The position numbers were made by a program, and so were the translations under genes. A DNA stretch of 64,000 nt from Caldithrix abyssi DSM 13497 (GTDB lineage: Bacteria > Calditrichota > Calditrichia > Calditrichales > Calditrichaceae). Positions 6,345-58,615 of this stretch are shown here, piece after piece (position 1 is the first letter of the stretch; every line of letters starts with the position of its first letter). Location of the stretch: the NCBI RefSeq assembly GCF_001886815.1, contig NZ_CP018099.1:3532501-3596500 (forward strand), read 5' to 3'. A model generated the notes under the pieces. It did not search any database, was not told where the DNA came from, and saw nothing but the letters and a program-made list of their open reading frames with translations.

Positions 6345-6361
6345 GGGGCTGTCCCAAAAGT
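6345..6361 (+). repeat. Left terminal inverted repeat of IS1182-like element
   Basis: Seventeen bases, GGGGCTGTCCCAAAAGT, exactly complementary to 8336-8352. Confidence 0.9.
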
Positions 6362-6377
6362 CGATGAAAGTAAATTT

Positions 6378-8138
6378 TTATACAAAACATATTTTGGCGT
6401 TGAAGAGACAAGATGAATATTTAATAACTATTTTTTCCTTAATTTCTATAAAAAATCGCTCTAACGTTTCTAAAATGGTATTTTTTAGGCCTAAATTTTG
6501 ACACTGGCTTGCCCGGTTTAAATTAAAAAAGATGTTAGCGCTATACTTATACATCTCGTTAACTAAACCGTACTCTTTCATCTGATTAAACATCTTTTTT
6601 AAATTATACGCTACTGCTATTATACCAAATTCTGTTTTTACTTTCTCTAATCCTCTTAATAAAAAGCCCCTTATTCCAAGATTATGCTTTATTTGTCCAA
6701 AAATTGTTTCTATCTCCGAACCTCGTTTGCTGATTAATTTTCTTCCTTCTTCCGTATTCAATCGAGAACGAACCTGCTTTTTATAATCATTAAGCATGAC
6801 ATTTACTCTAACAACACGCGCAGTCTGGCCCTTATAGCACTTCTCTTTCAATGCACAGCCTTCACAACTCTCACTACGGTAAATACGATGCTTTACTTTA
6901 AATCCCGTCGACGTAACATTTTCCTGTTCTCCAACATATTCTAAATACCGACCGGCAGGACATTCATAGCGATCTAATTCAGGATCATACCGCATGTTAT
7001 CTATCAAAAAAGGATTCTCTTTGTATGACTTCTTTTGCTCTTTGTAATAACTACTGTATTTGATATAAGCTTCTACACCTTCTGATTCCAAATATGCATA
7101 ATTCTCCTCACTTCCATAGCCTGCATCGCCTATTACTCGATTTGGTTGCCTACCATAACAACGCTTGTATGACTCCATAAAGGGCTTTAATAATACGCTA
7201 TCATTCGCGTTCTGATTTATCGTATAATTCACTATAAATTGATTCTCACTTCCTACCTGAACATTATAACTCGGAAGCAAATCCGTATTATTATGATGAT
7301 CCCGCTTCTTACTCATAAAGGTAGCATCCGGGTCCGTCTGGCTATAGCTATTCCTACCATTTAGAAGCTTTCGTTGCTTTTCATATTTACGTTGGCGCGG
7401 TAAATAATCCTTCTCTATTTTATTTTTTGCTCTCTTTAATTCCTTATTGTCCGGTTCCTTTTTTAACCGCTCATTCAATATATCAACTATTTGTTCAATC
7501 TGATGAGAGCTTAAAGTAACATCCTCTCCTAATTCTCCTAAATCTTTATTACCGTATAAACGATTCTCTAAATCATTCTCGTTATCTATCTTCTTTAGTA
7601 ATTCCTTTAGCTTCTCTTGAAGTACTCTCTGGTAACGGTCTACATTCTTCTTCCAGACTGCCTTGTATTTATTCGCATTCGCCTGAAATTTGCTCCCGTC
7701 TATAAAAAGATCATTTAATTCGATATAGCCCAACTCCAATAATTGCTCAACTACATAGGTGAATACTTCCTCTATTTTTCCCTTCAATCGTGATGAACGA
7801 AAACGATTTATCGTCCTAAAATCCGGACGACTGTTCCCTGATAACCACATGAAATGAATATTCTCTCTTAAGGCCTTAGCTATCTGGCGCGAAGTAAATA
7901 TCTTCTGCGTATAGGCATAAATGACTACTTTTAATAGCATCCGCGGATGATACGCGGCTCGACCGCCTCCTTTGTATTCTTTAATTAAAAAATCAATATC
8001 CATCTTATCTATGATGGCATTGATAAACCGAACCATATGATTGGGTTCTATGAGCTCATCTAATGAAGGCGGAAGAATAGTAAGTTGGTTTTGATCGGTG
8101 GTTTTAAATGGGATTTTTCGACAACTTTTTGGCTTCAT
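6378..8138 (-). CDS. IS1182-family transposase
   Basis: A 586-residue DDE transposase of the IS1182 group (DUF772 N-terminal domain followed by a DDE_Tnp_1-like catalytic domain). The N-terminal region has the family's helical, DNA-binding pattern (LDELIEPNHMVRFINAII, YHPRMLLKVVIYAY, RFRSSRLKGKIEEVF). LFIDGSKFQANANKYKAVW holds the first catalytic Asp, VIGDAGYGSEENYAYLE the second, and a Cys-rich stretch (CEGCALKEKC) precedes SKRGSEIETIFGQIKHNLG with the catalytic Glu. The gene is intact and fills the element, leaving about 200 bp of AT-rich leader before the right end. Confidence 0.93.
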   Translation of the reverse strand: MKPKSCRKIPFKTTDQNQLTILPPSLDELIEPNHMVRFINAIIDKMDIDFLIKEYKGGGRAAYHPRMLLKVVIYAYTQKIFTSRQIAKALRENIHFMWLSGNSRPDFRTINRFRSSRLKGKIEEVFTYVVEQLLELGYIELNDLFIDGSKFQANANKYKAVWKKNVDRYQRVLQEKLKELLKKIDNENDLENRLYGNKDLGELGEDVTLSSHQIEQIVDILNERLKKEPDNKELKRAKNKIEKDYLPRQRKYEKQRKLLNGRNSYSQTDPDATFMSKKRDHHNNTDLLPSYNVQVGSENQFIVNYTINQNANDSVLLKPFMESYKRCYGRQPNRVIGDAGYGSEENYAYLESEGVEAYIKYSSYYKEQKKSYKENPFLIDNMRYDPELDRYECPAGRYLEYVGEQENVTSTGFKVKHRIYRSESCEGCALKEKCYKGQTARVVRVNVMLNDYKKQVRSRLNTEEGRKLISKRGSEIETIFGQIKHNLGIRGFLLRGLEKVKTEFGIIAVAYNLKKMFNQMKEYGLVNEMYKYSANIFFNLNRASQCQNLGLKNTILETLERFFIEIKEKIVIKYSSCLFNAKICFV

Positions 8139-8335
8139 GGTTTTTATTTTAAATTTAATATTTTCAAGTTATTAATGCAAGTTATTTTATGTGCTAAAGA
8201 CAATAAATATAACTAATTTAAATCTTGTTTTTATTCATGTTTTTTTATTGAAATCTTTTACCTTTTCCATAATTTCGTATCATATTTACCAACAAAATTA
8301 TATTTAAAAACCTGTATATTTATACATCTTAATTT

Positions 8336-8352
8336 ACTTTTGGGACAGCCCC
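8336..8352 (-). repeat. Right terminal inverted repeat of IS1182-like element
   Basis: Inverted copy of the left end, reading ACTTTTGGGACAGCCCC on the plus strand; no mismatch to 6345-6361. Confidence 0.9.
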
Positions 8353-26944: not shown

Positions 26945-27152
26945 TCCGTTTCCTCTAATTTAATTCAAGGTCGGCAATTTAATAAAGTTTTGCGCAAAAA
27001 CGAAATGAAACTTTTGCCATTTTAAATGTAAGAGAGGGCTGCTTTCATGAATGTTTTTGCGGCAGACCAGGTGCGTTGGGAAAGAAACGTTCGCCGAGGA
27101 TTGCGCCCCATTTTTCATGGGATAATACGATTTTTTGCCCGGGGCCATCAGA

Positions 27153-27296
27153 GGATGTCTCAAAAGCGACATTAAATAAATAACATGGAAAAGTTTACAC
27201 TTCCCCTCACCCGCTTTTCAAAAGAGGGGGAATTAAAGGAGGTGAGGGAAAGAAAAACTTTGAAAAACTACATTGTCTTTAACTTTTGGGACAGCC
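27153..27296 (-). mobile_element. MITE-like element, copy A (about 144 bp)
   Basis: A non-coding element whose right end on the plus strand is the inverse of GGCTGTCCCAAAAGT, the terminal sequence of the IS1182-like element; its left end GGATGTCTCAAAAGC is an imperfect inverted copy. Read on the minus strand it aligns over its length with 45099-45271, sharing AAAGTTTTTCTTTCCCTCAC, CCTTTAATTCCCCCTCT and TGTCGCTTTTGAGACA. It has no ORF. It is flanked by CAGAG on the left and CTCTG on the right, so it sits inside a palindrome just beyond the ppa stop codon. Confidence 0.75.
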
Positions 27297-27336
27297 TCTG
27301 ACCGTCCTGTTTTGGGCGAGCAGACGCTGGCAGTTG

Positions 27337-44654: not shown

Positions 44655-44879
44655 CAACACGCTCCGATATGTTGTAAATAAATGAGTACTTAAAGATAAT
44701 GTTTTTGAAAATCGATTACAAAAAAGTTTAGGAGTTTTTTGAACCTTGATTAAACGGATTACAAGACTGCCTTGATTTTATGCGTTTGATGCGCCTTAAC
44801 TTTCCAGCTTTACTGAGAAAGTTTAAAAGCAAAAAAAAAAGCAAATCCTGGTTCAAAATTTAAATTACTCACCGGACTG

Positions 44880-45466
44880 GTATTCCGCATTCCACACTGG
44901 CGGGATGAGGAATCTTTATATTTACAGAAAGTGGCAGGCAAAAACTCTTTTTAATTTAAAACCTACTTTGTGTCCTTTGCGCTAAATATATTCTGCTTCA
45001 GCTGCGCTGGCTTAGGATACTTCCTCTGGAAGATCAAGTCTCTCCCTGGCGAGATTTGAAAATTTATGTGCTGTTGTAAAAACTCATCCCCCAGCCCGGG
45101 GCTGTCCCAAAAGTCAAAGAAAATGTATTTTTATAAAGTTTTTCTTTCCCTCACCCCCTTTAATTCCCCCTCTCCCGAAAGTCGGGAGAGGGGGAAAGGG
45201 GGTGAGGGCTATTGTAAACTTTTCTCTATTTTTTGCATAAATTTACATTTGATGTCGCTTTTGAGACACCCTCGGGCATAAATTGTGCCGATTTGCTTAG
45301 TTTTCGTCTTACATGTTCAGATATAGTTCTATTTTTTCGTTTCGACCCTGGCGTTCCCTTTTCAGATGACGCTGACCAGAAGGATTTGCGTGAAAAAATC
45401 TTTGCGCGCTTTGTGGCTTCTTTGTGCTCTTGGTGGTTCGTTTTTGGTTGCGGTTGCGCTGGCTTA
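44880..45466 (-). repeat. Dispersed stop-anchored repeats, copies 3-4 (split by a MITE)
   Basis: On the minus strand the array starts at the TAA of the YitT gene (45466) with GCCAGCGCAACCGCAACCAA and continues through ACCACCAAGAGCACAAAGAA. It is cut by the MITE-like element at 45099-45271, resumes with GGGGGATGAGTTTT, and reaches CTTCCAGAGGAAGTATCCTA at about 45020, followed by a second unit (AGCGCAGCTGAAGC). The second unit matches 33922-34000. The rest of the 44655-45463 gap holds no gene that I can see. Confidence 0.75.
45099..45271 (+). mobile_element. MITE-like element, copy B (about 173 bp)
   Basis: Starts with GGCTGTCCCAAAAGTCAAAG, like the end of the IS1182-like element, and ends with GTCGCTTTTGAGACACC, its degenerate inverse. 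It aligns in inverted orientation with 27153-27296. Its middle contains a strong internal hairpin (CCTCTCCCG…CGGGAGAGG near 45168-45192). There is no ORF. It is flanked by GCCCG and CGGGC, so it sits inside a palindrome of the surrounding repeat. Confidence 0.78.
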
Positions 45467-46396
45467 GATTCTCCTTCTAAAGCCCTCGCCGAGAACTTCG
45501 TGTACGTTGCTTATGATCACAAAGGCCGTGGGATCGATCTCTTCAATGATTTCTGTTAAGAGCGTAATCTCTTTTCTTGAAACCACGGTTAACAGGACTT
45601 CACGATCCACATTTTTGTACAATCCGCGTCCATGCAGCGCTGTGGCGCCACGGCTCAAGCGCTCCATAATGACCTGCGCGATTTTGTCGTTGTGATCGGA
45701 GATAATCAACGCGGAGCGAGCGTAGTCAAAGCCATCCAGCACCAGATCGATTAAATAGGAGGAAATGAAAAGTAAAAAGAAGGCGTACAGCGTAAGGGCA
45801 AAGGCCGGTGTGTTGCCGGACAGATCTTTAAGATAAATAATAAGGCCGGCAAAGGTGATAACAAAAAAATCGATCATCATAATGGACATGCCCGGTTTTG
45901 CGCCGTAGCGTTTCTGCAGAATGGCGGCCACAATATCAGAGCCCCCGGTGGTGCCTTTGAATTTAAAAATAATGCCCAGTCCCAGCCCAAGTAAAACGGC
46001 TCCGATAAGAATGAGGAAAAAGAAATCGTGTTCTCGTAGATGGATAATAGACGCCGCCTGATTTAATCCTTTGTAATGCAATCCCGGAAATTCCCCCCGA
46101 AAGATATCGATGAACAATGAAGAGATGGTAAAGCCGTAAAAAGTGCGCGCCCCAAAACGTTTGCCTAACTCTTTAATGCCCCAGATGTAAAGCGGAAGGT
46201 TAAATATCCAAATTAAAGTGCCCACGGGTAATTTACCGCCGGACAAATAATGAAACGCCATGGAAAGGCCGGAAACGCCGCCGGGCACAACGCGCGCATC
46301 CACCAGAAACACGCCAATGCCCAGGGCCATAAAAATCCCGCCCAGAGTAATAAAAATGTAATCTATTATTATCGAGTTCTTGAATAATCTTCCCAT
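45464..46396 (-). CDS. yitT: YitT-family membrane protein (DUF161/DUF2179)
   Basis: 310 residues with about five or six membrane helices at the N-terminus (ITLGGIFMALGIGVFLVDA, PGGVSGLSMAFHYLSGGKLPVG, FFFLILIGAVLLGLGLGII) and a C-terminal DUF2179 domain (ALIISDHNDKIAQVIMERL, HGRGLYKNVDREVLLTVVSRKEI). Function of YitT proteins is not well established; they may be transporters or sensors. ATG 46396 follows AGGAG. The stop lies inside the dispersed repeat, as the secA stop does. Confidence 0.88.
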   Translation of the reverse strand: MGRLFKNSIIIDYIFITLGGIFMALGIGVFLVDARVVPGGVSGLSMAFHYLSGGKLPVGTLIWIFNLPLYIWGIKELGKRFGARTFYGFTISSLFIDIFRGEFPGLHYKGLNQAASIIHLREHDFFFLILIGAVLLGLGLGIIFKFKGTTGGSDIVAAILQKRYGAKPGMSIMMIDFFVITFAGLIIYLKDLSGNTPAFALTLYAFFLLFISSYLIDLVLDGFDYARSALIISDHNDKIAQVIMERLSRGATALHGRGLYKNVDREVLLTVVSRKEITLLTEIIEEIDPTAFVIISNVHEVLGEGFRRRI

Positions 46397-58364: not shown

Positions 58365-58615
58365 AAAAATGTTGTTTAGGATACTTCCTCTGGAAGATCA
58401 ATCCAGCCCGGGCGGGATTTAAAAATTTTTGTGCTGCTTTTAAAACTCATCCCCCATCCCCTTCTCTTTAAAAAAGAGAAGGGGCGTAGATAGCGCCGGT
58501 TTTGTTTAGCTTTTGTCTTAAATGTTAAATAAATTTCTGCGATTATTGGCGTAATCTGCGAGAAAATTACTTTGCACACGTTGCTGTTGATTTTGGTTGC
58601 GGCTGTGCTGCCTTA
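58365..58615 (-). repeat. Dispersed stop-anchored repeat, copy 5 (uninterrupted)
   Basis: Begins at the TAA stop of secA (58613-58615) with GGCAGCACAGCCGCAACCAA and ends with CTTCCAGAGGAAGTATCCTA near 58375. In the middle is a 12-bp-stem hairpin (58458-58469 with 58473-58484). Order and spacing match 45466-45019 except that the latter carries a MITE where the hairpin is here. Confidence 0.75.

Follow-up and report, generated by a model that had tools for sequence, protein, structure and literature searches.

The window, i.e., the whole stretch of 64,000 nucleotides that was analysed, is part of a single 4,978,541-base contig and contains two copies of a dispersed repeat, one downstream of yitT and the other downstream of secA. 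The repeat downstream of secA has many copies in the genome. The features of the filled (yitT) and the empty (secA) copy are as follows.

45016 to 45093, plus strand: left arm of the dispersed repeat holding the MITE, outer limit approximate (alignment, motif extraction)
45094 to 45097, no strand: GCCC, the stem foot that remains of the replaced hairpin on the left (sequence)
45098 to 45273, plus strand: MITE of 176 bp, ending in imperfect terminal inverted repeats of 16 bp (GGGGCTGTCCCAAAAG / CTTTTGAGACACCCTC); 37 complete copies in total
45148 to 45208, no strand: the MITE's own hairpin (CCCTCACCCCC...GGGGGTGAGGG), landing place of IS4-type and IS110-type elements in other copies
45274 to 45277, no strand: GGGC, the stem foot that remains of the replaced hairpin on the right (sequence)
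45278 to 45467, plus strand: right arm of the dispersed repeat holding the MITE, outer limit approximate (sequence, motif extraction)
58370 to 58615, plus strand: unfilled repeat copy downstream of secA (sequence, BLAST, motif extraction)
58458 to 58484, no strand: target hairpin CCCCTTCTCTTTAAAAAAGAGAAGGGG, still intact in the unfilled copy (sequence, motif extraction)

The initial annotation described these copies as a filled and an empty site created by the insertion of a 173-bp element (45099-45271) into a terminator-like hairpin. The two repeats did run in parallel on both flanks of the element and stopped on neither side. The left flank (45044-45097) was 85% identical to 58407-58460, and the right flank, read directly from the sequence, was GGGCATAAATTGTGCCGATTTGCTTAG in the filled copy and GGGGCGTAGATAGCGCCGGTTTTGTTTAG in the empty one. 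A pairwise MAFFT alignment of the two copies confirmed the left side but not the right, which was left unaligned because of the insert; the continuity of the right flank came from motif extraction over all fetched copies and from BLAST pieces of the repeat, whose matches to other split copies were interrupted at query 90|113. The limits of the element had to be moved to 45098-45273, giving a length of 176 bp. In the flanks previously read as GCCCG and CGGGC, four bases are indeed residual stem but the fifth belongs to the element, so that the filled copy retains four symmetric stem bases without a target duplication. The GC-rich hairpin of the secA copy was found as claimed and its centre was absent from the filled copy. 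Thus, the filled/empty pair stood, but not the insertion into a hairpin: the element took the hairpin's place, and the stem-loop was absent from the filled sites.

The term terminator-like was not retained, as no T run directly followed the stem on either strand of the repeat copies. An intrinsic terminator as the target was rejected for this reason, and a scan of 44700-45480 revealed no more than three consensus sites, all of them weak, where 1.1 would be expected.

The MITE and its IS1182-family partner

A BLAST search of the element against its own genome returned 83 pieces, of which about 40 were main copies, many with 85-98% identity. Because of these pieces and of several other split copies of the repeat, chance was excluded as an explanation of the filled/empty pair. 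A paired-end scan of the fetched stretches identified 45 complete elements, 37 of them short (148-177 bp) and eight of 2008 bp, with ends lacking a partner, some being chance matches, excluded from these counts. Three further features of the window belong to this group.

27151 to 27298, minus strand: second, shorter MITE copy of 148 bp with the feet TCA / TGA (paired-end scan)
6345 to 8352, minus strand: full-length IS1182-family IS of 2008 bp with the same ends as the MITE, the likely source of transposase
6378 to 8138, minus strand: IS1182-family transposase of 586 aa (NF033551, 448.1 bits against a cut-off of 270)

The transposase also matched DDE_Tnp_1_6 and DUF772. The genome encodes eight uninterrupted copies of this IS (2008 bp) and one split copy, and the terminal inverted repeats GGCTGTCCCAAAAG were present at both ends in 8/8 uninterrupted copies. 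The IS was assigned to the IS1182 family on both grounds, a profile score above the curated cut-off and terminal inverted repeats on a unit of about 2 kb. The short element has its ends in common with this IS and a different interior, lacks a transposase gene and is present in 37 complete copies; its earlier description as a MITE was confirmed by the many copies with ends matching the IS. Because the ends are common to both, the MITE was probably moved in trans by the transposase of its larger relative in the same genome.

A strong central hairpin was detected in nearly all MITE copies, with predicted folding energies from -23.6 to -58.7 kcal/mol among the 37. The predicted value was about -58 kcal/mol for the MITE hairpin versus about -24 kcal/mol for the host hairpin that was replaced. 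Two versions of the apex of the MITE hairpin (about 45177-45184 of the window) occur among the copies, GAAAATC and GATTTTC, as would result from flipping of the loop. Rfam matches, mostly to microRNA families, were all far below the gathering scores and were taken as chance matches to the hairpin. At eight loci (L091, L093, L097, L099, L101, L102, L119 and L120), the first 64 bp of the MITE are followed by about 130 bp of other sequence, which then joins the left arm of the repeat at a fixed point, the other junction being variable. Four elements (contig positions 518492, 1711944, 1786204 and 2352226) adjoin another repeated motif like TATAATCATTTCATCCCTNCGGG.

Hairpins lost from the filled sites

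Several split copies of the repeat were collected in this genome together with 26 short unfilled ones, so other filled and empty sites do exist. Most of the unfilled copies, obtained by core extraction, read AAAACTCATCCCCCA-GCCCCTTCTCTTTAAAAAAGAGAAGGGGC-GTAAATAGCGCCGG and nearly all had the stem-loop. The hairpin was reduced in two of the 26 (1193206 and 2417467), and two copies outside this set (403206 and 777757) were also without the full hairpin. At one locus (L064:1-1740) the repeat is arrayed in tandem, each unit being about 390 bp long. The filled copies had the same flanks and no stem-loop, with either zero or two to four stem bases remaining.

The dispersed repeat lay on at least one side of 20 of the 45 complete elements. 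Feet were coded by hand at 22 repeat sites, all from one genome, comprising 15 with both arms flagged, two one-sided (1842399 and 2889217) and five elements interrupted by a later insertion (433053, 1911051, 3747583, 4030054 and 4825998). Three sites were excluded from scoring: 2754481, which has MITE sequence as one of its flanks; 3013568, where a pair of facing left arms forms a long palindrome; and the IS copy at 4646239, which adjoins an intact, unreplaced hairpin and constitutes an exception. The stem feet, scored as retained C's, were equal on both sides in 19 of the 22 sites (shuffled mean 11.2, p = 3e-5); the asymmetric ones were 275946 (0/4), 2323420 (3/2) and 2395223 (2/3).

Exact replacements were identified inside copies of an IS110-family element, which has six full copies with 100% identity over up to 1686 bp. 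In the copy at L098, an IS1182 insertion occupied the exact place of the palindrome GTTATTAACATATTGTTAATAAC, and in the copy at L109 a composite occupied the exact place of the palindrome GATCAAGATGTATCTTGATC. This composite consists of the IS, an IS110 tail and the right MITE half, and has an IS end on one side and a MITE end on the other; its inner IS junction also adjoins an intact palindrome. The replaced palindromes were 23 and 20 bp long and both were kept in 6/6 full IS110-family copies. These cases provide the strongest evidence because no decay lies between the filled and the empty copies. At L098, a further insert of about 2 kb (contig 2984365 to 2986396), also found in L088, splits the IS110-family copy with an overlap of about 4 bp.

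These data bear on two other explanations of the missing stem-loops. Simple insertion into the loop or stem of a hairpin, the half-hairpins having later decayed or been deleted, would also yield filled and empty copies at the same place, and an IS4-type element of this genome does insert in this manner, at the apex and with a 9-10 bp duplication. This course of events is highly improbable for the MITE, as the left and right feet have the same height at 19/22 sites and the exact palindrome is already gone in otherwise identical IS110 copies, leaving no time for decay. Alternatively, the filled repeats could descend from hairpin-less repeats, with the hairpin gained elsewhere, as the few unfilled copies with a reduced or missing hairpin (403206, 777757, 1193206 and 2417467) might indicate. 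However, the feet of that very stem persist in the filled copies, the insertions occur in both orientations and with differing cut heights, and the palindrome is present in 6/6 intact IS110 copies, which makes such an ancestry extremely improbable.

The end facing the left arm was of the L type in 17/25 cases and of the R type in 8/25, and these two orientations indicate that at least part of the insertions in the repeat were independent. It was considered whether many of the filled repeats were copied from a single filled ancestor, with few independent insertions. The repeat itself has multiplied, once as the tandem units of about 390 bp, and the eight hybrid loci share a common combination of half MITE and other sequence. 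Against this, the filled sites show both orientations, at least three cut heights and several right-arm variants, and the IS as well as the MITE is found at the same place. A single filled ancestor is thus quite unlikely, and it reduces the number of events only, leaving the mechanism intact.

Outside the repeat, 25 complete elements were analysed by comparing their flanks, both read in the direction of the element, with identical adjoining bases counted as inverted feet. The mean was 1.68 versus 0.49 for shuffled pairs, and 0/5000 shuffles were as high; one of the 25 pairs (4826893) is no genuine target pair, since it comes from the inner junction within the L109 composite. Feet of at least two bases were found in 12/25 sites versus 11.7% of mismatched pairs, and of at least three bases in 8/25 versus 3.0%. 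A target duplication was also looked for at these 25 sites and direct repeats were not in excess (0.44 versus 0.49 by chance, p = 0.65). No foot was present at 11 of the 25 sites, including that of the IS1182-family IS of this window (6345-8352); zero feet would also be expected from a cut at the very base of the stem. The role of the hairpin as a target was upheld by the repeat hairpin and the two exact palindromes in the IS110-family copies, and the suggestion that all insertions fall in hairpins held for most but not provably for all, given the footless sites and 4646239. A crude ORF reading of the gene context of the 45 elements placed 11 between convergent, 17 between tandem and three between divergent genes (31 classed), with 14 unsure. 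Scarcity between divergent genes would be expected if the targets were structures at gene ends.

The sites themselves show the replacement, the symmetrical cuts, the lack of a target duplication, the ends in common with the IS and, in the repeat, both orientations. As the mechanism, it is very probable that an IS1182-family transposase mobilises the MITE in trans and acts on inverted repeats. The form recognised would be an inverted repeat capable of extrusion as a stem-loop or cruciform. The element ends would be joined at matching places on either side of the stem, which may be the stem base or as much as about four pairs higher up. Whatever part of the stem-loop lies beyond the cuts would be lost, so that the element replaces the hairpin and no target duplication arises.

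Later insertions into the MITE hairpin

The hairpin of the MITE hosts two unrelated elements, a DruA-Tn5-type IS4 element and the IS110-family element. The former (L089:730-2988 and nine further copies) encodes a 752-aa protein in which a Tn5-type IS4 transposase is preceded by an N-terminal DruA domain. Seven of its ten copies occupied the apex of the MITE hairpin and showed the 9-10 bp duplication, as read from the flanks; of the remaining three, one (871388) occupied the apex of a different hairpin and two (2372012 and 2486027) lay outside strong hairpins. Five of the eight copies of the IS110-family element (L094:739-1980 and seven further) were found in the arm of the MITE hairpin, where the target was GGGAGAG^GGGG, two in a similar hairpin and one elsewhere. 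This nesting shows that hairpins are a common resource for three unrelated transposase families.

One speculative reading, rather unlikely as it stands, is a succession of hairpins in which the stronger hairpin of the MITE supplies the structure at the gene end and regenerates a landing place for unrelated elements, with the DruA domain reading hairpins or cruciforms. If true, it would also hint at the role of DruA in the Druantia defence system. A literature search for a DruA-IS4 fusion found no paper.

Distribution and relation to known systems

The MITE had no match in a search against plasmids. Among 40 genomes of the phylum, full copies were found only in its own genome, and partial matches in four others corresponded to the hairpin core or the ends. 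The search for the full-length dispersed repeat in relatives gave only short pieces, mostly of the hairpin, in 8 other genomes of the 40. Relatives of the transposase were detected in its own genome and, as two pieces, in one relative among the 40 genomes; a wider search of genome contigs added two loci with 39-40% identity. In a same-genus relative (L124 and L128), short elements with the same ends and a different interior were observed.

Known examples of insertion sequences that target REP palindromes insert with a duplication. As in the present case, intergenic palindromes are reported to be the preferred targets of such elements (PMC1525189). MITEPye1 of Paracoccus yeei (PMC11578231) and the ISMac2-related MITEs of Methanosarcina acetivorans (PMC3852290) resemble the element described here in being short and non-autonomous with IS1182-like ends. 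MITEPye1 is flanked by 4-bp direct repeats (PMC11578231), whereas none were found here, and two ISMac2-related MITEs are listed with the values 4 and 0, respectively (PMC3852290). The accessible parts of both papers do not mention hairpin replacement (PMC11578231, PMC3852290).

The closest parallels are IS1272 and TnSha1 of staphylococci, which move by inverted-repeat-replacing transposition. In the model proposed for IS1272, and named stem-loop-replacing transposition by its authors, the target extrudes as a stem-loop, the element ends become linked to the 3' feet of the stem-loops, and the stem-loop itself is eliminated (PMC5678879). For TnSha1 and IS1272, hairpin targets partly deleted by blunt cuts, at heights differing within one target, have been described (PMC4923244). 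As far as the accessible text of these two papers goes, the systems share with the present one an IS1182-family transposase, palindromic targets that follow no sequence consensus, a stem-loop lost in part or entirely, the lack of a target duplication, several cut heights per target, both orientations and composites bounded by a second end (PMC5678879, PMC4923244). Here, an inverted-repeat target was seen at the two exact IS110 palindromes and in the repeat hairpin and not at 11/25 sites outside the repeat, the stem-loop was wholly or partly deleted and no target duplication was present. The sites thus fit IS1272-type transposition in the testable features, with the asymmetric sites, 4646239 and the footless sites as exceptions.

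Here, stem-loop-replacing transposition is carried out by a MITE, many times over and in a phylum distant from staphylococci; no description of a MITE replacing hairpins was found in the literature searched, which contained few subscription papers. The literature found describes this mode for one staphylococcal element and its composites, and the present single genome offers dozens of filled and empty sites, where the cut heights are directly readable and thus place constraints on the chemistry. By removing hairpins, a mobile element guided by structure can change many gene ends at once. Unlike IS1272 and TnSha1, the element is a 176-bp MITE from a distant phylum, many of its sites lie in one repeated hairpin, and it brings a hairpin of its own.
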